IMG/VR virus record: IMGVR_UViG_3300027710_000117 | Location: 1-26,141 of that record | Strand: one strand, 5' to 3' | From: a virus | Length of the DNA: 26,141 nt | Shown: one piece after another, positions 12,117 through 25,719 of the stretch | Layout of the letters: every line of letters starts with the position of its first letter | How positions within the stretch are numbered: position 1 is the first letter of the stretch | Notes under the pieces: generated by a model | Database searches by the model: none | The model's input: the letters and a program-made list of their open reading frames with translations, nothing else | What the model was told of the DNA's origin: nothing | Position numbers and translations under genes: made by a program

Positions 12117-12323
12117 TTACTCTGTTGTATTGACTTCTTCAATAACCACCACAGAGGCAGTTACGTTGTACTTCTTCAGCAAAGCCAAAGCAATTGCTTC
12201 GGCTGTATCGGGTTTAGCTGTGGCTTTTGCAAGTTCATCAGCGTCAACCACCAAGCCACGGGCAACAAGTTCAATGTCGCCGTAGCTGGTCACAATTGCT
12301 TCGATTGCGTCTGAGACTTTCAT
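12117..12323 (-). CDS. Hypothetical protein (68 aa) after the tail-tube pair
   Basis: The likely start is the ATG at 12323, which overlaps the stop of tube protein 2 as TGATG. An in-frame ATG at 12377 would run 54 bases into the tube gene and is rejected. The product starts MKVSDAIEAIVTSYGDIELV and has an acidic, helix-rich composition with 'ELAKATAKPDTAEAIALALLKKY'. The function is unknown. Translational coupling to the tube gene suggests a tail assembly role. Confidence 0.65.
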   Translation of the reverse strand: MKVSDAIEAIVTSYGDIELVARGLVVDADELAKATAKPDTAEAIALALLKKYNVTASVVVIEEVNTTE

Positions 12324-12841
12324 CAGTTGTTCGACCAGCCGTACTGGTTGCCTCGCGGATGAACAGTGAATGTGCATTTAGCTTCTGCCCCCGGTTGTGC
12401 GTCAATTTGGAATTGACCCACGCGACCGTTAAAAGCGTAAGCAATGGTGTTTGCGCCTTCTACTGCTGCAACCACAAAAGTGCGATCAACAACACCAGAG
12501 TAAGCATCAGAACGAATTTGCAACAAGGCTGTATCAGCAGGGTTCCAAGCAGCCGTAATGGTCATGCTTGTAGGAGCCGCTTGCACAGGAATCTTGTCGC
12601 TTTGACGAGAGCCAGCAACACCGAAACTGGCAACCGCATCGTCCTGACCAAAGGCAGGGATTGCCTCAACAGGAACAGCAACACCAGCAGCGCCTGTACC
12701 GCCAGCAGAAGTACCAACAATGGTGGCAACTTGAGCAGACCAGACAGACAGATTAGCTGTAGTCAGGGGTGTTGGCGTAGCCGATGATTGCATAAACAGC
12801 GATGCGCTAAAACCGGGAAGAACTTTTGCAGGGATAGCCAT
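12323..12841 (-). CDS. Tail tube protein, paralogue 2
   Basis: The 172-residue protein begins MAIPAKVLPGFSASLFMQSS and ends FTVHPRGNQYGWSNN. It is a close paralogue of the protein at 12851-13345. A 48-residue block (about residues 55-102, from PVEAIPAFGQDD to WNPADT) is identical between the two. The N-terminal variable part carries an extra Gly/Ala-rich stretch (VGTSAGGTGAAG). The location between the terminator/completion proteins and the chaperone, the size and the strong expression signals (AAGGAG five bases before ATG) fit a tail tube (lambda V-like) protein. The fold itself is inferred. Confidence 0.75.
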   Translation of the reverse strand: MAIPAKVLPGFSASLFMQSSATPTPLTTANLSVWSAQVATIVGTSAGGTGAAGVAVPVEAIPAFGQDDAVASFGVAGSRQSDKIPVQAAPTSMTITAAWNPADTALLQIRSDAYSGVVDRTFVVAAVEGANTIAYAFNGRVGQFQIDAQPGAEAKCTFTVHPRGNQYGWSNN

Positions 12842-12850
12842 GATGACTCC

Positions 12851-13345
12851 TTATGCGTTGTTAGACCAACCGTATTGGTTGCCACGGGGATGGACGGTAA
12901 ATGTTGCCTTGGCTTCAGCGCCGGGAGCAGCATCAATCTGGAACTGGCCTACACGCCCGTTAAAGGCGTAATAAACGATGTTTGAACCCTCGGTAGCCGA
13001 GATGATAAAAGTGCGGTCAATCACGCCAGAATAGGCATCTGCTCGCATCAACAGCAAGTTGGTGTCAGCAGGATTCCATGCCGCAGTGATGGTCATGGAA
13101 GTTGGAGCAGCTTGAACAGGGATCTTGTCAGATTGACGCGAACCCGCTACGCCGAAACTGGCCACAGCATCATCTTGACCGAAAGCAGGGATTGCTTCCA
13201 CAGGAATGATGTTGCCGCTAACAGCAAGAGGGGCCACGCTAGCGACCAAGGACAACTGTGCAGTAGTCAAAGGAGTAGGTGTGGCTCCGGGCTGTGCGTA
13301 CAACGCTGCCGTAAAACCGGGAAGAACTTTGTTTGGTAAAGCCAT
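12851..13345 (-). CDS. Tail tube protein, paralogue 1
   Basis: The 164-residue protein begins MALPNKVLPGFTAALYAQPG. It matches its neighbour at 12323-12841 nearly end to end, including the shared terminal motif HPRGNQYGWSNN. It has AAAGGA before the ATG and lies 37 bases after the preceding gene, so it may start a strong translation unit. Despite identical protein over the core 48 residues, the DNA of the two copies differs at more than twenty positions there, all silent. It is probably the main tube subunit or one of two, but which dominates is not known. Confidence 0.75.
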   Translation of the reverse strand: MALPNKVLPGFTAALYAQPGATPTPLTTAQLSLVASVAPLAVSGNIIPVEAIPAFGQDDAVASFGVAGSRQSDKIPVQAAPTSMTITAAWNPADTNLLLMRADAYSGVIDRTFIISATEGSNIVYYAFNGRVGQFQIDAAPGAEAKATFTVHPRGNQYGWSNNA

Positions 13346-14146: not shown

Positions 14147-14818
14147 TTACATCACCAAAGGTTTGTAACTGCGTAAAAGCGTTGTCACGCCAAACGGAAT
14201 GTCTTTAAGCTGTACCGCTGTTGAGTTTGAACGGTTGTTATACAAGTGCGTTAGCAACAACAAACCAGCTTGCTTTATAACAGGGTAAGCAGACAAAGGG
14301 TTTGATACCGTTGTGTACAGCACATTGATTGGCGCAGTCATTACCGAATTAACGTCAGTCGGCAAATTGTTGACAATCACTTTGTTGCCAGATGGGTCGT
14401 AGTAGTAACTTGTATTTGTCAGCGCCGTAAACACTGGAGGAAAAGAATCGTTCCAGTATCCGACCGAATCAATTGTTACCCCCGGCTGATTTGGGTAAAA
14501 GTTTTGGCTGACTTCAGGCAAGTCAAGACTGATAGGAGATGCCACAAGGCTTTCAGAGCCATACCAGACGCGATAACTTACCGGGAAGATAGACATTCCC
14601 AAGTAATCCTCAATTGCTTGCCGTGTAGCCAATTCAAGACTAGACAAATAAGTGTCTTGGCTTTCGTCTTGAAACAGGTTTAGCTGTTGCGTGATTTCGT
14701 CAAGCGTCAACCACGGAGTGACACTATCACGGTCAATCTGTTCAACCTTTGCATAGTTAAACGGATTGCGCGTTTGCGCCCCAAAAGGCGCAGCGTATTG
14801 ATAGTTGTCAAGGCTCAT
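14147..14818 (-). CDS. Head-tail connector (gp6-like adaptor)
   Basis: The 223-residue protein has 'WLTLDEITQQLNLFQDESQD' then 'YLSSLELATRQAIEDYLGMSIFPVSYRVWY' (short motifs LATRQAIEDYLG). This matches the adaptor family whose N-terminal helices carry the 'Lt.dEak..L.....e.d..l..li..A...ie.ylg' pattern (HK97 gp6/phiE125 gp8 type). A late helix 'PVIKQAGLLLLTHLYNNR' is also typical. The adaptor ring binds the portal below the head. It is longer than many members because of a beta insertion at about residues 95-165. Confidence 0.85.
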   Translation of the reverse strand: MSLDNYQYAAPFGAQTRNPFNYAKVEQIDRDSVTPWLTLDEITQQLNLFQDESQDTYLSSLELATRQAIEDYLGMSIFPVSYRVWYGSESLVASPISLDLPEVSQNFYPNQPGVTIDSVGYWNDSFPPVFTALTNTSYYYDPSGNKVIVNNLPTDVNSVMTAPINVLYTTVSNPLSAYPVIKQAGLLLLTHLYNNRSNSTAVQLKDIPFGVTTLLRSYKPLVM

Positions 14819-14820
14819 GT

Positions 14821-15864
14821 TTAAGTCTCAATAGAACGAACACCAGCAAAAACATCACGCACAGTGCTGACCATACGCTTTTCAGCATACATCTGCACAA
14901 AGCCGGGAGTTGTCTGTTCCATTGCCTGAACGGTCATTTCTTCCACATCAGCAATGGTCATAAAACGGGGCCAGTTAGCAAGGTACATTGACTTGCAGCC
15001 CACAGTCCCTGCTGCATCCAAATATGGGTTTGGAATTACGGGGAATCCATACACATGGAGCAGCGAACCAGCTTCAGCCGAGCCAGTTTCAACAAAAGAA
15101 TAACTAGAACCGCCGTGAGCATAATTACGCAAAGTTTGAATGGCTGTTGGGTGCATCATCCAAGCAGTACCGGGCATAGACCAGTATTGCGATGGCAACG
15201 CATTTGCCATTGCCGACAAGACTTCTGCTTCAAGGCCACCAGTGTTGTTGTAGCCAACAGTGCGGATGGTGTGCAAGCCGTTTGTGATGGCTGTACCGCT
15301 TGTACCATAAGCAGCCGCAGCACCAGCAGCGCCGGGGTAGCTGTTGAGGCCACGCAAACCATCAATGCCACCAGTTGATGTGGTAGTAGTGCCAGCTTGG
15401 TCGTTATTCAGGCCGCAAGATGCGCCTTCAAGTTGTGCAAATTCCATCATCAAGTCTTCAACCAATTCGGCTTGCAGACCATTGATGTCAGTCAGAACAG
15501 CGGTACGGACAGGCATTTGCGCCGTGATAACACGGGTAGGCATTTGCCAAAAACTTGTGTCGATGTTTGGTGAACCACTGTTGGGGTTAATTGTGTAGCC
15601 CCAAGGGTTTGTGCTGTTTGCAGCGTTACCAGTTTTGGCAACAAACTGAACTTCAGAATTGCCGGGAGCCTTAATAATTCGTGCGCCTTGGCGAAACGGG
15701 TTTGCATAACGCAGCGCAGCGAATGCGTCATCAAAGTAAGTGCGACCACCGACATTCAAGCCTGAACCAGTGATAGCAGATGCCTCGCGCAAGTCAATCG
15801 TGACTCTATCGCCAGTTTCCAATGTTTGCTTAAACCCAGACAGGATGCGTTCGGTAATGGTCAT
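14821..15864 (-). CDS. Second HK97-type major capsid protein paralogue (347 aa)
   Basis: The start chosen is ATG 15864 (MTITERILSGFKQTLETGDR), with AGGAG five bases upstream; the ATG at 15900 would lie inside the preceding gene and lacks such a site. The protein matches the capsid protein at 16510-17859 along its whole length after that protein's N-terminal coil. Shared landmarks include GGRT, ALR..NP.R, WGY.I, P.RTA.L.DI.GL.A..V.D, NNDQA and the terminal EKR..S.VRD..AGVR. It has no N-terminal scaffold-like delta domain. It may form a minor capsid component (for example pentamers) or a decoy copy. Confidence 0.8.
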   Translation of the reverse strand: MTITERILSGFKQTLETGDRVTIDLREASAITGSGLNVGGRTYFDDAFAALRYANPFRQGARIIKAPGNSEVQFVAKTGNAANSTNPWGYTINPNSGSPNIDTSFWQMPTRVITAQMPVRTAVLTDINGLQAELVEDLMMEFAQLEGASCGLNNDQAGTTTTSTGGIDGLRGLNSYPGAAGAAAAYGTSGTAITNGLHTIRTVGYNNTGGLEAEVLSAMANALPSQYWSMPGTAWMMHPTAIQTLRNYAHGGSSYSFVETGSAEAGSLLHVYGFPVIPNPYLDAAGTVGCKSMYLANWPRFMTIADVEEMTVQAMEQTTPGFVQMYAEKRMVSTVRDVFAGVRSIET

Positions 15865-15872
15865 AAAGACTC

Positions 15873-16472
15873 CTAAATTGATGACTTTTTTAGCGCCCAA
15901 TACGCTTTAAGAGATTCTGATCTTTTCTTATTGGCTGCTGGTTTTTGCACGATGCCAAGACTATTCTTGTTCCCGAGCAGCTTCTGTGATCTTTTTAGGT
16001 TTGATTCTATTGTGTTTTTAAAGCCCAAGCGACTTTTATTTCCAACAGAAGCCAAGCCAATGTTTGCCTTGTGTGACTCAGATAAAGTCCGGCCTGTTAT
16101 TGTGTTTTTTCTTTTGTCGGCAGATTCTTGGTTGAACATAGGATTTACAAAGTTGGCTTTCTGTGAGGCGCTCTTTTTAGCCCTCCAAGACTCAGATGGA
16201 ACCCATCCAGAGGTTCCTTCGCCTCCATCAGTCAAATTAACCAAAGGAATGCCAATGTCTTTAAAGCACTGAATCAATAATTTTTCATGCTCCAGTGCTT
16301 CATGCTCTGTATTCCACTTACAAAGTATTTCAGAAGTAAAGCCATGCTTACGAACAACATTATTCCAATGGTTATTACGTTTTGTCTTTACAAGATGCCG
16401 CCTTCCTTGTCCCTTTCCAATATAGAAAGGCTCAAGCGTGTCGGCTTTGAAATGTATGTATGTGTAAAACAT
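15873..16472 (-). CDS. GIY-YIG homing-type endonuclease with NUMOD3-like C-terminus
   Basis: The 199-residue form starting at ATG 16472 (MFYTYIHFKADTLEPFYIGK) begins right at the catalytic domain. Tyr3-Thr4-Tyr5 corresponds to GIY, and Tyr17-Ile18-Gly19 to YIG, followed by Lys-Gly-x-Gly-Arg-Arg and a later 'NTEHEALEHEKLLI' with the metal-binding Glu. The C-terminal half carries NUMOD3-type DNA-binding motifs (GRTLSESHKANIG, SRLGFKNTIESNLKRSQ). Such enzymes spread by cutting sites in conserved genes; here it lies between the two capsid genes. An alternative start at 16502 would pass through the terminator hairpin. The stop TAG forms part of the next gene's Shine-Dalgarno (TAGGAG). Confidence 0.85.
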   Translation of the reverse strand: MFYTYIHFKADTLEPFYIGKGQGRRHLVKTKRNNHWNNVVRKHGFTSEILCKWNTEHEALEHEKLLIQCFKDIGIPLVNLTDGGEGTSGWVPSESWRAKKSASQKANFVNPMFNQESADKRKNTITGRTLSESHKANIGLASVGNKSRLGFKNTIESNLKRSQKLLGNKNSLGIVQKPAANKKRSESLKAYWALKKSSI

Positions 16473-16475
16473 AAC

Positions 16476-16500
16476 AAAAAAGGGGGAGGCAAGCTCCCCC
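16476..16500 (-). terminator. Intrinsic terminator after major capsid protein 1
   Basis: The minus strand reads GGGGGAG, a 5-base loop, CTCCCCC, then six T. The 7-bp GC-rich stem with an immediate T-run is a textbook rho-independent terminator. It begins 9 bases past the capsid stop (16510) and ends just before the nuclease ATG. Confidence 0.88.
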
Positions 16501-16509
16501 ATCACAACT

Positions 16510-17859
16510 TTACGTTGCTGTCCCGGTTGATCGGTAGCGCACACCCGCGTTCGGGTCGCGAACACTGGAGCAAAGCCTTTTTTCGCCGAAAAACGTAATA
16601 AAACCGGGGAGGGTCTGATCGTAACGGCGCATAACCATGTTCAGGCGATCCACGATGGTGTGGAAGCGGCTGAAATCAGCAAAATACATTGGGTACAGGC
16701 TGTTAGTGCCAGCAGTGCCAGTAGTAGTTTGCGATGGCGTATCAAGATACTTGTTTATCACAACGTCAAAGCCGAGCATTTGACCAATGATGCCATCAGG
16801 ATTCAACGACTCAGTAGAGTTGAAGATTGGACGACCATTTGTGTCTTGCAGACCACGGATAGCTTGAGCCAAGATTGGGCTAACCATAAACTTGGCGTTG
16901 CTTGTCCAATACTGCTGTGGCAAAGCGTAGATCAAATTGATAACGTCTTTGTACTGGATGTTGTTAGCACCCACAGTGTTGGCGTTGGTGGTGATCTGGT
17001 CGTAAGTAGCCAGCGAATGCAGACCGCTTGTAGAGCCAGTGCCAGATGTGCCGAAAGCAGCAACAGACGATGTACCACCAGTGTATGTAGCGTTAGAACC
17101 AGCGTACTGATCCAAGCCACGCAGACCGTTAGTGCCGCCGTAAGGGTTGCTTACGGACTGAGCAGCTTGGTCGTTGTTTTGAATCATCGACAGGGCTTCG
17201 CTCTGAGCGAACGAGGCTAACATATCGTCAACAACAACAGCTTCCAAACCATCAATGTCATCCAGAGCAGCAGTACGGATTGGGAACTGGACGTTCAAGT
17301 CTTGCAGAACCAATTGCCAGATGCTTGTGTCTTCAGTGGTGGCTGCACCGTTGTTCTGAATCGCATAGCCCCATGCTTCACCGGGGTTGCCTACGCGCAC
17401 GCGAAACTGGTAAGAAGAACCATCAGTTGCAACAGTGCGAGAAACACCGCGCATTGGGTTCAGCAAACGCAGAGCCGTGAAAGTAGGATCGTAGCCAGTA
17501 CGACCACCCTTGCCATCACCGCCAGCGGTCAAAGCAGAGGCTTCTTTCAGGTAGGCGTCCATTTGGCTTTCGTCTGCAAAGATTTGCAGTTCTTTTTCCA
17601 TGCGGCTGTTACCTTTGTAAAAGGTAGACAGTTGCTCACGCACAGAACGGTTCACATCTTGGCGAACAGTCTTAGCGGGTGTGCGAATGAACTCAGGCAT
17701 TTGAATGGAGGCAACTTTGGCTTCCAGAGCAGATACCATTTCAGCCATTTCAGCTTTGACAGCTTCAACAGCAGCGGGGATTTTGGCTTCTACAGCCGAG
17801 ATGCCTTCAGCTTGTTTAGCTTCGATGGCATCCAGTTTTTCAAGAATAACTTGGGACAT
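16510..17859 (-). CDS. HK97-fold major capsid protein 1 with N-terminal scaffold-like domain
   Basis: The 449-residue protein begins with a coiled coil (about residues 1-55: MSQVILEKLDAIEAKQAEGI, then heptad-like Ala/Glu/Val repeats), as in the HK97 delta domain, followed by a linker and 'TPAKTVRQDV'. The capsid fold follows, with 'KGGRTGYDPTFTALRLLNPM', 'WGYAIQNN', 'FPIRTAALDDIDGLEA' and the C-terminal 'FFGEKRLCSSVRDPNAGVRY'. In the family the prohead protease removes the delta domain during maturation; the protease gene is just upstream (3-base gap). AAAGG precedes the ATG. A strong terminator follows it. I cannot tell from sequence whether crosslinking occurs. Confidence 0.92.
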   Translation of the reverse strand: MSQVILEKLDAIEAKQAEGISAVEAKIPAAVEAVKAEMAEMVSALEAKVASIQMPEFIRTPAKTVRQDVNRSVREQLSTFYKGNSRMEKELQIFADESQMDAYLKEASALTAGGDGKGGRTGYDPTFTALRLLNPMRGVSRTVATDGSSYQFRVRVGNPGEAWGYAIQNNGAATTEDTSIWQLVLQDLNVQFPIRTAALDDIDGLEAVVVDDMLASFAQSEALSMIQNNDQAAQSVSNPYGGTNGLRGLDQYAGSNATYTGGTSSVAAFGTSGTGSTSGLHSLATYDQITTNANTVGANNIQYKDVINLIYALPQQYWTSNAKFMVSPILAQAIRGLQDTNGRPIFNSTESLNPDGIIGQMLGFDVVINKYLDTPSQTTTGTAGTNSLYPMYFADFSRFHTIVDRLNMVMRRYDQTLPGFITFFGEKRLCSSVRDPNAGVRYRSTGTAT

Positions 17860-17862
17860 GAT

Positions 17863-18645
17863 TTAACCTTTAAGTCGTTTATCAAGGAGTTTTAGAAGTT
17901 CACGTTGCTCAAGAGCCGCGAGAATTTCTGCTTCGGTCGCTTCCGCACCAGAATCACTCTGTTGTGGCGCATTTTCAATAGCCACCGTTTCAGCATCACG
18001 CTGCTCCAGCACTTTCTTGAATGTTGATGCGGCAGCGACCGCATCGCTCTTGGACAGCCCTGCATCCCGCAAGGCTTCTTCCAAAACTTTTAAATCAGCA
18101 GAGCCATCAGGTCGGAAATATTCCAACTTCTTAATTTCTGCTGCCATGTTATTTGGGTACATCACAACGCTGGTTTCGCGCAAACCGCCTTTGGTAATTT
18201 GGAAATAAGCGTCTTCTGATTGGTCTGGTTCGCCTTCGACATTGACCATTTGATATTCTTCAGCGTAAGCGCCAACAGAAACCCCGCCAAACATATTTGG
18301 GGATTCTTTCATCACTTGGTAAAGGTCTGAGCCAGCAGATGTGTTCATAAACAATCGGCCTGAAGCGTTCATGCCTTCGTCATCCATCTCAATGCTTGTC
18401 CACTCACCCACGGGGATTGCGTCAGCATTGTGGTTAACGTACATAGGCAGTGGTCGGCCCATTTCGGCAAACTCTTTAGCCCAATCCATAAAGCCTTCAG
18501 CCTTATAGAAAAACTTACGCCCATCAGCGCCTTCTCTTGGGCCAAATGTCGTGATGCGAGCCTCAATCAGACCAGTTGGTTGACCGTTGGTAGCCTTCTC
18601 GTTGAGATTTAGCTTGGCTTCGCAGATAAGATTCAATGTCTTCAT
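17863..18645 (-). CDS. HK97-type prohead protease (S78-like)
   Basis: The 260-residue protein carries the family landmarks: 'GRKFFYKAEGFMDWAKEF', then 'PMYVNHNADAIPVGEWTS' with the candidate catalytic His72, and 'SPNMFGGVSVGAY' with the candidate catalytic Ser123. A 'GLRETSVVMYPNN' strand follows, and the C-terminus (from about residue 180) is a charged, helical tail. It would digest the scaffold domain of the capsid protein inside the prohead. The start at 18645 has AGGGG six bases upstream and leaves a 136-base structured gap after the portal gene. Confidence 0.92.
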   Translation of the reverse strand: MKTLNLICEAKLNLNEKATNGQPTGLIEARITTFGPREGADGRKFFYKAEGFMDWAKEFAEMGRPLPMYVNHNADAIPVGEWTSIEMDDEGMNASGRLFMNTSAGSDLYQVMKESPNMFGGVSVGAYAEEYQMVNVEGEPDQSEDAYFQITKGGLRETSVVMYPNNMAAEIKKLEYFRPDGSADLKVLEEALRDAGLSKSDAVAAASTFKKVLEQRDAETVAIENAPQQSDSGAEATEAEILAALEQRELLKLLDKRLKG

Positions 18646-18781: not shown

Positions 18782-18785
18782 TCAA
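18757..18785 (-). promoter_or_regulatory. Possible sigma70-type promoter before the protease/capsid genes
   Basis: TTGATA (5 of 6 matches to TTGACA), a 17-base spacer and CACAAT (4 of 6 matches to TATAAT). The transcript would begin near 18750 and include both hairpins of the gap. This rests on motif matching alone. Confidence 0.3.
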
Positions 18786-20179
18786 GTAGCGCCAATGTTC
18801 ATTTTTCTGGTTTGGTTACCGCCACCGCCGCCAGTATCTTGACCGCTTGCGCCGGGGACAGGTTCAGCGTCCTTACCATCTGCCATCAATTCGTCTGCAC
18901 CTTCCTTAGAGGGCAAATTCATGTAATTACGGGCTTCGTTAGGTGTCATTATTCCACCTTTTACGCCAGCAGTGGCAAAGTTCATTTGATCCAAAGGCGC
19001 ACCCTTGAGGAAATCCTTGGTATCAAACTCAATGCAAAGACTTGGGTAACCTTCAAGCAAATGCTGTGTCAACTTCTGCTGAATGTTGACGATTGTGGGG
19101 TACATGGTGGTTTTGTAAAACTCATCTAAAGCCGTTTGGCTGTTGTTAAATTTGCCATCATGGATGCCAATCATAGAAGGCGGCACACCAAACAAACCAC
19201 AGATACGGCGCATCGTCTGCAACTTCAAAGCAGCAGCATCAGTGTCTTGCAGGGTTAGCATCTCAAGTTTCTGATACTTCATGCCTTGATCCAGCAACAT
19301 ACCCTGTCCCGGCTTGCTCGGGTCACTGGTCTTGCTGCCTGTCATGTTGTTCCACGCCTCTTTCAGACGGGCTGCAATCTCTTTGTACTTGCCATCAGGA
19401 ATAACCTGATCGGTAACAAACATACCGCTTGGCTTCGCGCCGTTCTGCATGACAAAGTTGGCGTACAGGTCAATGTCTTGGTCAAGGCCAACCAACTCAG
19501 TTGCCAAAATCGCTTTGTTAAAACCAGCCGAGCCTTGCCACGCCATTTCCTTGGTGTGCATAACTTGAAAATACTTGAAGTCATGGTCTTTGTTAAAACC
19601 ATAGCTAGGTGTTGACAGTCGAAAGGTCGGGTAACGTGTTGGCGTGATGGTCACAGCAATTAGCGTTGAATCCAGCACATACATTTCCAGTGGAGTCTCG
19701 GTAGAACTGTTTTGGTCTTTCCTCCACCACAAGGTAAAGGCCTCACCAGACAATTCGTACCACATCAACCACTGATACCAAAACTCATACTTGCTTTGGA
19801 AGTTGTTTGGGTTGCCCAACAGCTTCGCAACTTGACGCGCTTTAGCTTTATCTCGCGTTCCAACACCTTCGCCTTTGCAAGCATCAACCAATTTACCGTC
19901 TGCCATTTCATGGCAGATTTTGATAGGCAATTGCGCCAAAGCTCGCGCTTTTACGCCCACACACGACATGATTGTGCTGTTTCGGGTCAGCACAGACATA
20001 TCCACAGGGCGACCAGCAGTAGTTGTGCTGGCAGTGGTCACATACAGGATTTGGGTGTTAACACCACCACGCTTATCGCTGCCCTGATAGACAATATTGT
20101 TGCCCAAAGCCGTTTGGCCGAACAATGTATTGCTCTCAGATTGAGTGGGCTTTCGTTTAAAAATGTCGAAAATAGCCAT
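18782..20179 (-). CDS. Portal protein (HK97 family)
   Basis: The 465-residue protein has the HK97 portal landmarks: an early 'VLTRNSTIMSCVGVKARALAQLPIK' segment (short motif STIMSCVGVKARALAQLP), 'LLGNPNNFQSKYEFWYQWLMWY', 'NFVMQNGAKPSGMF' and 'RRICGLFGVPPSMIGIHDG'. These form the stem and crown of the dodecameric ring through which DNA enters. The C-terminal 'GGIMTPNEARNYMNLPSKEG' also fits the family. The tail is Gly-rich (GQDTGGGGGNQTRKMN). A GAGG site precedes the ATG, 8 bases after the terminase stop. Confidence 0.95.
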   Translation of the reverse strand: MAIFDIFKRKPTQSESNTLFGQTALGNNIVYQGSDKRGGVNTQILYVTTASTTTAGRPVDMSVLTRNSTIMSCVGVKARALAQLPIKICHEMADGKLVDACKGEGVGTRDKAKARQVAKLLGNPNNFQSKYEFWYQWLMWYELSGEAFTLWWRKDQNSSTETPLEMYVLDSTLIAVTITPTRYPTFRLSTPSYGFNKDHDFKYFQVMHTKEMAWQGSAGFNKAILATELVGLDQDIDLYANFVMQNGAKPSGMFVTDQVIPDGKYKEIAARLKEAWNNMTGSKTSDPSKPGQGMLLDQGMKYQKLEMLTLQDTDAAALKLQTMRRICGLFGVPPSMIGIHDGKFNNSQTALDEFYKTTMYPTIVNIQQKLTQHLLEGYPSLCIEFDTKDFLKGAPLDQMNFATAGVKGGIMTPNEARNYMNLPSKEGADELMADGKDAEPVPGASGQDTGGGGGNQTRKMNIGAT

Positions 20180-20187
20180 GATTTACC

Positions 20188-21849
20188 TCAAAAAGTTCGG
20201 AAACCAAACCCCGATTGCGTTGCATTGTCCAAAGAACAGTGTACAGCAATGATTAAACTAATAATACCATCAACCTTTGCCGACTTGTCTGCCTCATTTT
20301 TACGCACTTTGATGTTCCCGTTGACATCTTCATAGACTTCACAGTTCCCAAGCTGCCAACCAACAAACGGATTGCCATCATGCTTAATAGCGTGACCCAT
20401 CAATAATTTTTCAACGTGTTTGCTTGGGTTGCTCAAAACAGCCATGCCCTGTCCCACCTTTTTAACGGGTAGACCAGCATCATTCAGTCGAGCAACAAGG
20501 CTTGCAGCGTTATAAGCGTCAAAGCCAATCTCTTTCACATCGTATTTGGCGCACTGCTGGATGATGTAATCGCTAATTTCGCGGTCATCCATTACGTTGC
20601 CTTCGGTGATGTGCAAAATGCCAGAATTCTTAGCCACCCTGAAAATGTCGCCGTAGTGCTTGGGAATTAACTCAAAGCCATCAGCAGGGAGGAAGAACTT
20701 AAATTCGGCTTCGTAGTCATCATCCGCATACCGCTTCAAAGTGCATACAGCGTTTAAGTCGCGTGTTGCCGCCAAGTCAAAGCCCATAAACACCGCTTCT
20801 GGCTCACGTTCTTCAACGATCTTGCATTTGTCGTCATCCCAATACGCCCTGTCCACCCAAGCGGAATTAGCCGAAACATAGATGTTTAGGGTTTTGCAAA
20901 GGAACTCGTTTAGCGCCGCTGGCTTATGTTTGGCTTCTTCTGCGCGTTGGGCAATGGCTTCTTCAAAGATGGAAATGCCGTGCATTGGGTTAGCTTTAGC
21001 CCATGTCGATGGATCCCGCCAATCGTCACCGGGATCTAGGCTATACAGCAAGCCAAACCAGCGCGGGTTGTCGTTAGCCTCGCCCGTCAACATAGTTTGA
21101 AGCATTGTCATGTCTTCATAAAACTTTGTCTCTTTGGTGAAGCTGGCAGTCGTGATGTAAATCCTCAATGGGTTTTGCCGCGCAACCATACCTGAGTGCA
21201 GCACCTCAATAGCGTTACGGTCAACGATTTGCGCCGCCTCGTCAATGATGGCGCAAGATGGGTTCATACCGTCACCCGTTTTTTTAGCGTCCCGTGACAA
21301 GGCCTTAAACATCGACTGCGTGTCACCCGCCTTCATAATGTTGTGGCGGCTTGTCGTGTACAGAGCCGCTACGTCTGGAGGCATGGCATCAATAAACCCA
21401 AGTGACGCTTGGAACACAATGGACGCTTGGTCACGGGTAGTCGCCAGCGAATACACCTCAGAGCCAGTTTCGCCAAAGGCTAACTCATATAAGGCAATTG
21501 CCGCTGTCAGTGTGGATTTACCCGCCTTGCGAGGAATGAAAATAATCACATCCGTGACCATTCGTTTGGACGGGTCTTTTTTAGACCTAAACCCATAAAT
21601 GGCGCACATGGCAAAAATCTGGAATGGCTCGAGTTTTAATGGCTTTCCAGCATCCGGGCCTTTTGTGTGGCGCAGCGTAGAAATAAATTCCAAAACGTGT
21701 TCCACATATTTAACGTGAAACTCATAAGCCCATGTCTTGTTTTCTAGTTGGTCAAGGAATCGCTGACAAGCTAATCGAATATTTCGACATACTGCAATCT
21801 CACCCCTTGCCACTTGCACGGCATACATAATGCCATCTTCGTAATTCAT
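20188..21849 (-). CDS. terL: Terminase large subunit
   Basis: The 553-residue protein shows an ATPase domain with Walker A at residues 106-113 (PRKAGKST), Walker B and catalytic Glu at 201-205 (IIDEA), and a TTAS coupling motif at 233-236. The nuclease domain has 'MGFDLAATRDLNAV' (Asp358 as first metal ligand) and 'EIGFDAYNAASLVARL' (second acidic site). It packages genome DNA through the portal and cuts it at the end. The length is typical of the HK97/P27-associated TerL class. The start overlaps the small subunit stop (ATGA). Confidence 0.96.
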   Translation of the reverse strand: MNYEDGIMYAVQVARGEIAVCRNIRLACQRFLDQLENKTWAYEFHVKYVEHVLEFISTLRHTKGPDAGKPLKLEPFQIFAMCAIYGFRSKKDPSKRMVTDVIIFIPRKAGKSTLTAAIALYELAFGETGSEVYSLATTRDQASIVFQASLGFIDAMPPDVAALYTTSRHNIMKAGDTQSMFKALSRDAKKTGDGMNPSCAIIDEAAQIVDRNAIEVLHSGMVARQNPLRIYITTASFTKETKFYEDMTMLQTMLTGEANDNPRWFGLLYSLDPGDDWRDPSTWAKANPMHGISIFEEAIAQRAEEAKHKPAALNEFLCKTLNIYVSANSAWVDRAYWDDDKCKIVEEREPEAVFMGFDLAATRDLNAVCTLKRYADDDYEAEFKFFLPADGFELIPKHYGDIFRVAKNSGILHITEGNVMDDREISDYIIQQCAKYDVKEIGFDAYNAASLVARLNDAGLPVKKVGQGMAVLSNPSKHVEKLLMGHAIKHDGNPFVGWQLGNCEVYEDVNGNIKVRKNEADKSAKVDGIISLIIAVHCSLDNATQSGFGFRTF

Positions 21850-22436: not shown

Positions 22437-22865
22437 CTAGCTGTTGCTCTGATGCAACACATACCCATAGTCATCTTTACTGTAGGTGCGCTCACCATCG
22501 GGGGTGTAGTGGGTATATACGCCTTGCTTCTCTAAACCTGTCTTATGGCTATGGTCGGCATGGCACAGGCTTTGAAAGATGTTGTTCAGGAAGGCGTGTT
22601 TGCCTATGTGCTTCCATGCGAACACATGGTCAACGTGTTGCGCTTGCTCTACCTTGCCCCTGCTTAGACAGGCTTGGCATAGTGGCTGCATGGATAGTTG
22701 GCGCTGTCTAATGCTTCGCCAAGCGGGTGTCTGATAGATGCTGTCTGTATCCCTTGAGGGTAGGTTGTCCCTACCTCCATGCTTGATACAGAAGCTGTTG
22801 AGCCTTGACCTTGGTTCGCTACACCCTAGCTCGGAACACTTGGTGTTATGTGGGTAGGTCGGCAT
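22437..22865 (-). CDS. HNH endonuclease next to terminase
   Basis: The start used is ATG 22865 (MPTYPHNTKCSELGCSEPRS), giving 142 residues and a 20-base overlap with the methyltransferase gene; the ATG at 22913 would overlap it by 68. An N-terminal Cys/His cluster (Cys10, Cys15, Cys26, His29) is followed by the HNH core: 'LCQACLSRGKVEQAQHVDHV' with His-x-Asp-His at 77-80, Asn94/95, and 'SLCHADHSHKT' at 99-109. HNH proteins of this kind beside terminase genes (HK97 gp74 type) are needed for DNA packaging/cutting in some phages. Homing is the alternative. Confidence 0.85.
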   Translation of the reverse strand: MPTYPHNTKCSELGCSEPRSRLNSFCIKHGGRDNLPSRDTDSIYQTPAWRSIRQRQLSMQPLCQACLSRGKVEQAQHVDHVFAWKHIGKHAFLNNIFQSLCHADHSHKTGLEKQGVYTHYTPDGERTYSKDDYGYVLHQSNS

Positions 22866-23976
22866 TAATAAGCTCTGCCTTCTTGCCTGTGAAGTCTTCC
22901 CATCGCTTAACAATCACATCACAGAATCTTGGATCAAATTCCATAATAAATGATTGAATGCCGTTCTTTTCAGCAGCAATCAGAGTGCTGCCTGATCCAC
23001 CAAAGTAATCAGCAATTGTATTTGCTGACAGTTTAAATCGCTTAATAATCCACTCCATAAGCGCAACAGGCTTTTGTGTTGGATGTACTCGGTTTGTTTT
23101 TTCTGATGCTTGTGTAAATTGACGCACAACACTTCTAAAGTTTGCCCATGCCAATTCACAATCGGTTTGATCTGATTGACCGTTATTCTTATCCCATACT
23201 AACCAACATTCGCTGTCAGGTAATACTGAACAATAATAATTTGCGCCCCACCAAATATGCTTTGCTTCTGGATACAAACCATATATTAGATTAAATGCAT
23301 CTTTTGCTACGTCTGGCGTGTCATCACCAAGAATGTCAATCTTGTAATTTTTCTTTAAAACTGATGACTTGCTGACAGCATTCATTCCATAAGGAGGATC
23401 CGTGTGGACAAGATCAGGATACGTTCCCTGCATCAATTTATCTATGTCATCAATGAATGTGGAATCACCGCACATTAAACGATGGTTACCAAGTCTGTAT
23501 ATGTCACCTTTTTTGGTCTTTGGCTCTTCAGGTATTTCGGGTACAGAATCTTCGTCTGTCAAACCTTCAATTACCTCTGGATTTAATGCTTCAAGCTCAT
23601 CCAAGCTAAAGCCCGTAAGCCCAAGGTCATACCCTGCGTCTTTAAGGTCTGCCACCTCAAGCATCAGCATTTCATTGTCCCAACCAGCGTTTAACGCCAG
23701 TTTGTTGTCAGCAATGATGTATGCGCGTTTCTGGTTGTCATCCATGTGGCTAAGTTCGATGGTCGGCACTTCGCTTTCGCCTAGCTTTTGTGCAGCCAAC
23801 ACCCGCCCGTGACCAGCAATGATGCCGTTTTCCCCGTCAAGCAATACGGGGTTAGTCCAACCAAATTCCTTGATGGATGCCGCTATTTGGGCGACTTGGG
23901 CATCGTTGTGTGTGCGGCTGTTCCTTGCGTAAGGAATCAAGTCTGCTATTGGCTTGTATTGTATTTTCAGCTTCAT
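22846..23976 (-). CDS. ParB-domain DNA methyltransferase (DPPY type)
   Basis: The 376-residue protein joins two domains. Residues 1-95 are ParB/Srx-like (LIPYARNSRTHNDAQVAQIA; GIIAGHGRVLAAQKLG; NQKRAYIIADNKLAL). The methyltransferase follows, with the catalytic motif Asp-Pro-Pro-Tyr at 193-196 and the AdoMet-binding motif DYFGGSGST at 323-331 near the end. Catalytic motif before binding motif indicates the beta class of amino (N6-adenine or N4-cytosine) methyltransferases. No restriction partner is obvious, so it is an orphan enzyme likely protecting phage DNA or marking it. The target site cannot be read. It is ATGA-coupled to the gene upstream. Confidence 0.92.
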   Translation of the reverse strand: MKLKIQYKPIADLIPYARNSRTHNDAQVAQIAASIKEFGWTNPVLLDGENGIIAGHGRVLAAQKLGESEVPTIELSHMDDNQKRAYIIADNKLALNAGWDNEMLMLEVADLKDAGYDLGLTGFSLDELEALNPEVIEGLTDEDSVPEIPEEPKTKKGDIYRLGNHRLMCGDSTFIDDIDKLMQGTYPDLVHTDPPYGMNAVSKSSVLKKNYKIDILGDDTPDVAKDAFNLIYGLYPEAKHIWWGANYYCSVLPDSECWLVWDKNNGQSDQTDCELAWANFRSVVRQFTQASEKTNRVHPTQKPVALMEWIIKRFKLSANTIADYFGGSGSTLIAAEKNGIQSFIMEFDPRFCDVIVKRWEDFTGKKAELINADLPT

Positions 23977-25130: not shown

Positions 25131-25252
25131 GTCTTCTCCTTGAGTAATGTGCCGATGATCTTGCTGCACCGGGTGCATTGGTACAGGTAGTGCGTGGGTA
25201 TGCGGTACTTGATGCCGAAATTGCTCGGCTCCCAGCGGTGAAAACATTTCAT
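25127..25252 (-). CDS. Zinc-binding-type microprotein B (41 aa)
   Basis: The frame runs from ATG 25252, which forms ATGA with the stop of the HNH-AP2 gene, to a TGA that forms ATGA with the ATG at 25130. The product begins MKCFHRWEPSNFGIKYRIPT and has Cys3-x-His5 and Cys26-x2-Cys29 (YQCTRCSKI). It resembles microprotein A at 24878-24976 in both motif and spacing style, with a longer middle loop. The tight coupling on both ends and the paralogue make a real gene likely. Function unknown; zinc binding is inferred. Confidence 0.7.
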   Translation of the reverse strand: MKCFHRWEPSNFGIKYRIPTHYLYQCTRCSKIIGTLLKEKT

Positions 25253-25719
25253 GTAAAACCTCGTGGTGTTGGTTGAAACTGGTGGTGAATTTCTTTTGCC
25301 TTCAGGTATGCGGCGACTGCATCCTGTTTTGACTCAAAATAACCAAGATGCAGCCGCCTATCTCTGACCCTAATTCGAGCTTGCCACTTATTTTTTTCTT
25401 TGTGCAAATGCACCCCAAAGGATGTGTGATTTTGAGAATTCTCAAAATTTGTCGCTAGCCTCAAATTGGCAATTCTGTTGTCGTTTTTTACGCCATTTAT
25501 GTGGTCAACCTGATTGGAGGGTGGTGCGCCATAAACATACAACCAAGCAAGCCTGTGGGCCTTGTATGTTTTTCTGTCGATGCAAATATTTGTGTATCCG
25601 TTTGACGCTGTAGCTCCCGCAACATCTCCAGCCTTGGCCGTTCCTTTGTTTAATAACCAAAAAAACAAACCAGTGTCCGGTTCGTAGCTCAACAAAAGTT
25701 TCAACTGATCTCTAGTCAT
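25249..25719 (-). CDS. HNH homing-type endonuclease with AP2 DNA-binding domain
   Basis: The 156-residue protein has an HNH_3-type core: 'YKAHRLAWLYVYG' (His55) then 'NQVDHINGVKNDNRIANLRL' (His73, Asn79, Asn81 region). A C-terminal AP2/ERF-type domain spans about residues 105-142 (KNKWQARIRVRDRRLHLGYF). This pair is typical of mobile phage nucleases. It is linked by ATGA overlaps to both neighbours, so either the insertion is old or the gene brought its own coupled start and stop. Confidence 0.9.
   Translation of the reverse strand: MTRDQLKLLLSYEPDTGLFFWLLNKGTAKAGDVAGATASNGYTNICIDRKTYKAHRLAWLYVYGAPPSNQVDHINGVKNDNRIANLRLATNFENSQNHTSFGVHLHKEKNKWQARIRVRDRRLHLGYFESKQDAVAAYLKAKEIHHQFQPTPRGFT

Follow-up and report, generated by a model that had tools for sequence, protein, structure and literature searches.

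Most of the HK97-type phages that have been studied build both the hexamers and the pentamers of the shell from a single protein, bacteriophage T4 being the textbook exception. A linear virus fragment from IMG/VR (26,141 bp, analysed at full length and referred to here as the window) carries two different HK97-type capsid genes, which we call cap1 and cap2, and raises the question of what a second capsid protein does in such a phage.

Results

A virus fragment with two HK97-type capsid genes

The minus strand of the window contains terL, the genes for the portal protein and a Peptidase_S78 prohead protease, cap1, a hairpin, a nuclease gene, cap2, a connector gene and tail genes (Table 1). A first-pass annotation, made by eye from the sequence, had described two HK97-type capsid genes with a terminator and a gene for a GIY-YIG-like nuclease between them; this arrangement is real, and the positions given for it were right. 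Both proteins pass the curated cut-off of the Pfam family Phage_capsid (PF05065, 24.2 bits), cap1 with 95.6 bits and cap2 with 64.7 bits. The two are 38% identical over 346 columns (BLASTP, E 2e-62) and have in common the landmarks GGRT, NNDQA and EKR..S.VRD..AGVR, which bears out the divergence that had been noticed between them. An AlphaFold model of cap2 (pLDDT 63), compared with the PDB, matches the RcGTA capsid (6tb9, E 1e-12) and also HK97 gp5, and the profile of cap1 is nearest to the RcGTA capsid Rcc01687 (E 1.7e-10); the HK97 fold is thus predicted for cap2 by its model and for cap1 by its profile.

The scaffold-like coil that had been ascribed to the N terminus of cap1 proved to be an extra helical region of ~75-100 aa that is absent from cap2; a low-confidence model (pLDDT 48) places helices at residues 2-51 and 65-82. 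In particular, only cap1, with the prohead protease gene adjoining, has a helical domain of ~100 aa ahead of the conserved GG region, where cap2 has ~28 aa. Common to both proteins is the stretch (K/R)EAS(A)-TG-G..GGRT..(Y/F)D, and HK97-type capsid proteins get cut at sites of the EAS-TG-GGRT kind. Cap1 and cap2 may each be cleaved in their shared EAS(A)-TG-G..GGRT region, and the Peptidase_S78 protease is expected to mature cap1 and possibly matures cap2 as well. In the window, the AGGAG of cap2 and the stop codon of the nuclease gene overlap.

Table 1 Features of the capsid region of the window
Feature	Position	Strand	Evidence
cap1: 449-aa major capsid protein whose N terminus forms a helical, scaffold-like (delta) domain	16510-17859	-	PF05065 E 4e-27; phrog_10
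cap2: 347-aa second capsid protein of HK97 type, lacking the delta domain	14821-15864	-	PF05065 E 1e-17; predicted fold
Terminator-like hairpin and T tract directly 3' of cap1 (nuclease-module version)	16473-16500	-	
Free-standing gene for a putative GIY-YIG-like homing endonuclease between the capsid genes, 199 aa	15873-16472	-	PHROG 314 E 6e-15
Putative cap2 ribosome-binding site AGGAG, 5 nt upstream of the ATG	15870-15874	-	sequence
Prohead serine protease (Peptidase_S78)	17863-18645	-	PF04586 E 3e-8
Portal protein	18782-20179	-	PF04860 E 8e-59
Head-tail connector (Ad1-like), immediately after cap2	14147-14818	-	phrog_40 E 4e-13; PF05135

Elsewhere on the same strand, the packaging end of the fragment contains two HNH-type nuclease genes (25249-25719 and 22437-22913; PF13392 HNH_3, phrog_144) and a single frame (22846-23976) in which, as read by eye, a ParB-like N-terminal region is followed by a DNA methyltransferase with a DPPYG motif. 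Among the tail genes, two adjacent and closely similar tail-tube-like genes (12323-12841 and 12851-13345, minus strand; the first belongs to phrog_158) hardly differ in their C-terminal halves. One copy stands at the equivalent place in P19250A, L238 and L239, so that this second duplication is limited to part of the family.

The capsid pair is a trait of a phage family

We assembled a first set of 233 loci, comprising the results of four viral-contig searches, the isolate P19250A and the window; cap1 is followed by cap2 in 215 of them, and the remaining 18 end at the absent gene or at most about 90 bases from it. A second set of 87 loci came from a search with a more distant member and from seven contigs binned into metagenome-assembled genomes of bacteria or archaea. 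In this set the pair is present in 80 loci, six of the exceptions being cut by the contig end and the other (L293) having a broken cap1 frame. (Note that some loci share one contig, so these counts are partly non-independent, and that the bin labels are weak evidence of host, the host being known only for P19250A.) Methylophilaceae phage P19250A, a complete isolate genome (KX815270), carries the pair with cap1 annotated as 'gene transfer agent capsid protein' and cap2 as 'hypothetical protein'. When 22 contigs of 33-76 kb were searched with Pfam, each proved to have one or two capsid loci and none a further kind of capsid gene; one contig of 76 kb holds two cap1-cap2 pairs and probably contains two copies. 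These findings establish the pair as a trait of a large family of freshwater phages. When we used the portal protein to look for a single-capsid sister of this family, the matches listed beyond P19250A were only 23-25% identical.

One old duplication, followed by purifying selection

In a tree of 82 proteins from 41 representative genomes, cap1 and cap2 are reciprocally monophyletic (100/100) and separated by a very long branch. Together they form a single group against five single-capsid outgroup capsids (100/100), in a tree that recovers the cap2 clade with 100/98 and the cap1 clade more weakly, with 84/89. The best capsid outside the family matches cap1 with an E value of only 7e-4, far from that between cap1 and cap2. 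Given reciprocal clades and no close outside capsid, the copies split before the sampled phages diverged, and one duplication of an HK97-type major capsid gene almost certainly took place before the family radiated, as these trees are best read. An old duplication had been one of two origins proposed for the pair; the other, in which cap2 was gained from an unrelated phage, is unsupported, since cap1 and cap2 are sisters relative to the five outgroup capsids, although unsampled intermediates are possible.

Of the two genes, cap2 evolves faster, with a mean identity to the window's copy of 67%, compared with 78% for cap1. Both are under purifying selection, with a dN/dS of 0.12 for cap1 and of 0.07-0.13 for cap2 within an allele class (see below). 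The retention of the pair in ~300 loci, together with these ratios, lends indirect support to the view that cap2 is expressed and functional, and cap2 is almost certainly conserved as a genuine gene.

The nuclease gene is a late arrival

The product of the gene between cap1 and cap2 was assigned to the 'homing endonuclease' group PHROG 314 and contains, as read by eye, the motif YTYIHF...FYIGKGQGRR; it has no match in Pfam even at E 1. The nuclease gene separates the two capsid genes in the window (L003), L018 and L062 alone and is absent from the other junctions of the first set, a sporadic presence with empty sites in relatives such as marks a mobile gene. Moreover, the nucleases of L062 and the window are 86% identical though their cap2 proteins are only 72% identical, which indicates that the nuclease moves between lineages, and a few genomes have nuclease relatives at other places. 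Common to the carriers is a re-coded cap1 3' end (ACCGGGACAGCAACGTAA, amino acids unchanged), and they have their own hairpin in place of the native one; between L018 and L062, similarity climbs to 92-94% at the end of cap1 and drops again in cap2. Judging by these comparisons, the nuclease gene is an ordinary selfish late insertion that displaced the native terminator, and cap2 is independent of it. The replaced last codons of cap1, which would have arrived with the nuclease gene, probably destroy its own cut site.

The suggestion that cap2 might be a relic tied to the nuclease is refuted by the same observations: the nuclease gene is the later insertion, and the proposed search for nuclease-free phages that have this capsid pair was strongly positive, with the pair in ~300 loci and the nuclease in three lineages only. 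It is an established pattern for nuclease genes to lie close to those of the capsid and the terminase (PMC10448857). In Rhizobium phage RHph_X2_25, a putative homing endonuclease gene directly follows a single capsid gene (L245, 2034-2882).

A terminator-like hairpin persists between the capsid genes

The hairpin of the window (GGGGGAGCTTGCCTCCCCC-TTTTTT, 16482-16500 plus T tract) has counterparts across the family, where the gap between cap1 and cap2 measures 54-77 bp if uninterrupted by insertions. By a fixed rule, a terminator-like hairpin with a T tract is present in 134 of 147 unique cap1-cap2 junctions, the other 13 having hairpins with weaker T tracts, whereas the same rule detected one in 1.2% of shuffled junctions and in 1.0% of 60-base windows taken elsewhere in these loci; a chance origin is thereby ruled out. 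The 147 junctions contain 62 different 5' arms, so the structure of the hairpin persists while its sequence turns over, and a search of Rfam gave no matching family. Between the hairpin and the start of cap2 there are only ~25-30 bases, which would leave little space for a promoter. By analogy with T-phi of T7, partial termination at the hairpin may raise cap1 above cap2 and the genes downstream.

The junction accepts insertions beyond the nuclease, as indicated by a sub-lineage (L250, L253, L255, L261, L262 and L268) with gaps of ~350 bp, in which an ORF of ~100 aa that is part of phrog_2859 lies between the hairpin and cap2.

Cap2 occurs in two exchangeable classes

Among phages whose cap1 is at least 86% identical to that of the window, cap2 falls into two classes, A (27 loci, the window included) and B (17 loci). 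Identity is mostly 80-100% within a class and 60-70% between classes, with almost no intermediate values. Nucleotide identity between A and B falls below the within-class level only across the cap2 mature domain; all of cap1, the hairpin, the connector gene and the opening ~80 bases of cap2 are as similar between classes as within them. On the cap1 tree the class switches 10 times, at least 8 of the switches being forced by supported branches (13.5 when classes are shuffled), and on the cap2 tree once. These findings demonstrate that cap2 classes are frequently exchanged against a uniform cap1 background. In the same phages, TerL and one tail protein also form two classes, and cap1, portal and protease do not. 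TerL (20188-21849 on the minus strand, and relatives) is bimodal, at 55-65% or 80-100% identity, amid near-uniform portal and cap1 proteins, which points to the terminase as another exchanged cassette. We suggest, tentatively, that the cap2 mature domain might be a balanced allelic cassette, two classes of which are selected and shuffled in a recombining population while the major capsid protein stays uniform; the selection may perhaps reflect recognition of a minor shell protein by hosts, defence systems or satellites.

Discussion

What, then, does cap2 do? The reading we lean towards is that cap1 is the major subunit of the shell and cap2 a specialised, scarcer one, most likely located at the vertices, a placement that draws on the analogy to T4, the reduced propeptide and the position of cap2 after a terminator. 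After an ancestral duplication, one copy would have kept the scaffold domain and the bulk shell role, and the other, whose scaffold domain is lost, may have become a dedicated, less abundant shell subunit. The hairpin after cap1 would let only part of the transcripts pass to cap2 and the connector and tail genes, giving an excess of cap1. Cap2 would then co-assemble in proheads driven by the cap1 scaffold domain, most likely taking up the 11 five-fold vertices other than that of the portal, and the same protease may trim it in the region it has in common with cap1. Counting against a place at the vertices, a terminator would reduce every downstream gene and not cap2 alone, and the faster evolution and two allele classes of cap2 are not obviously traits of a vertex subunit.

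Cap2 could instead be a shell protein located off the vertices, mixed with cap1 in hexamers or confined to particular lattice positions, for example around the portal. The full HK97 fold predicted by the model of cap2, its place in the operon of cap1 and the wide variation among its alleles, which might be tolerable at scattered positions, are compatible with this; however, our literature searches gave no HK97-type phage in which paralogues mix in one lattice, and the only well-described paralogous pair they returned, gp23 and gp24 of T4, is segregated, and we regard such a role as fairly unlikely. That two discrete cap2 classes have undergone at least 8 exchanges relative to cap1 would be explained if cap2 worked outside the lattice, as a decoy or trigger-evading partner in conflicts with capsid-sensing host defences or phage satellites. 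Yet both the full fold and the maturation-site region shared with cap1 have been kept in cap2, and TerL and a tail protein also occur in allele classes, so exchange need not imply conflict; we consider this quite improbable. We think it very unlikely that cap2 is an alternative capsid for some conditions, such as another head size or host, and is normally absent from shells of cap1: two intact capsid genes are indeed both under selection, but a protein that lacks a scaffold domain and has no separate scaffold gene adjoining is a poor candidate for building a shell by itself, and protease, portal and operon are each single and shared. Finally, the nuclease gene between the two capsid genes of the window might suggest that cap2 is a non-functional relic or a by-product of homing, a reading to which we give almost no credence in view of its intact frames, the purifying selection on it and the ~300 loci that have the pair without the nuclease.

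If cap2 is indeed a scarcer vertex subunit, then a second, independent duplication in small phages common in freshwater would mean that the split between bulk and vertex roles evolves repeatedly, and the isolate P19250A would offer a small system for testing why the two roles split. The conserved terminator may set the stoichiometry of the shell. Apart from this, a whole family of 'hypothetical' proteins can now be named capsid proteins, and one capsid gene has been shown to occur in two allele classes that can be exchanged.

The order of elements in the window, major capsid gene, terminator, nuclease gene and presumed minor capsid gene, is also that of T4, in which gene 23 is followed by a hairpin and T tract, the GIY-YIG gene segD and gene 24. 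T4 gp24 occupies 11 of 12 vertices, is ~20% identical to gp23, probably arose by duplication and has a propeptide of 10 residues, compared with 65 in gp23 (PMC9958956). Like gp23 and gp24, cap1 and cap2 are paralogous capsid proteins of (predicted) HK97 fold that are encoded by adjacent genes, the minor (in our case presumed minor) copy having a much shorter propeptide. Unlike the T4 proteins, they are members of PF05065, and each is the other's closest relative; PF05065 is their sole Pfam match, and T4-type capsids are absent among the tblastn matches listed, at E values up to 10. The duplication is thus separate from that of T4, and the resemblance would be convergent. The two systems also differ in genome size (~33-41 kb in the paired-capsid family and 169 kb in T4), in the scaffold, which here would be a domain of cap1 and in T4 is a separate protein, and in the strand of the nuclease gene, segD lying opposite to the capsid genes and the nuclease gene of the window on the same strand. 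A search of the literature for pairs of paralogous HK97 capsids in phages other than T4-like ones returned nothing relevant; JBD30 and SU10 were considered and rejected, the sources having meant neighbouring copies of one protein.

Closer to the window, P19250A belongs to the same family and has the same gene order, with a hairpin between capsid genes that lie 77 bp apart, capsid proteins 56-57% identical to those of the window and no nuclease gene. HK97 gp5 and Rcc01687 of RcGTA, which provide the closest solved structures, have the same fold, but in each of these systems, unlike the cap1-cap2 pair, one gene forms both hexamers and pentamers. In T7, T-phi lies directly after capsid gene 10 and before the head-tail genes, much as the hairpin follows cap1; however, T-phi is a terminator for T7 RNA polymerase, the gene that follows is no capsid paralogue, and the minor form of the T7 capsid protein, gp10B, comes from the same gene as the major one.
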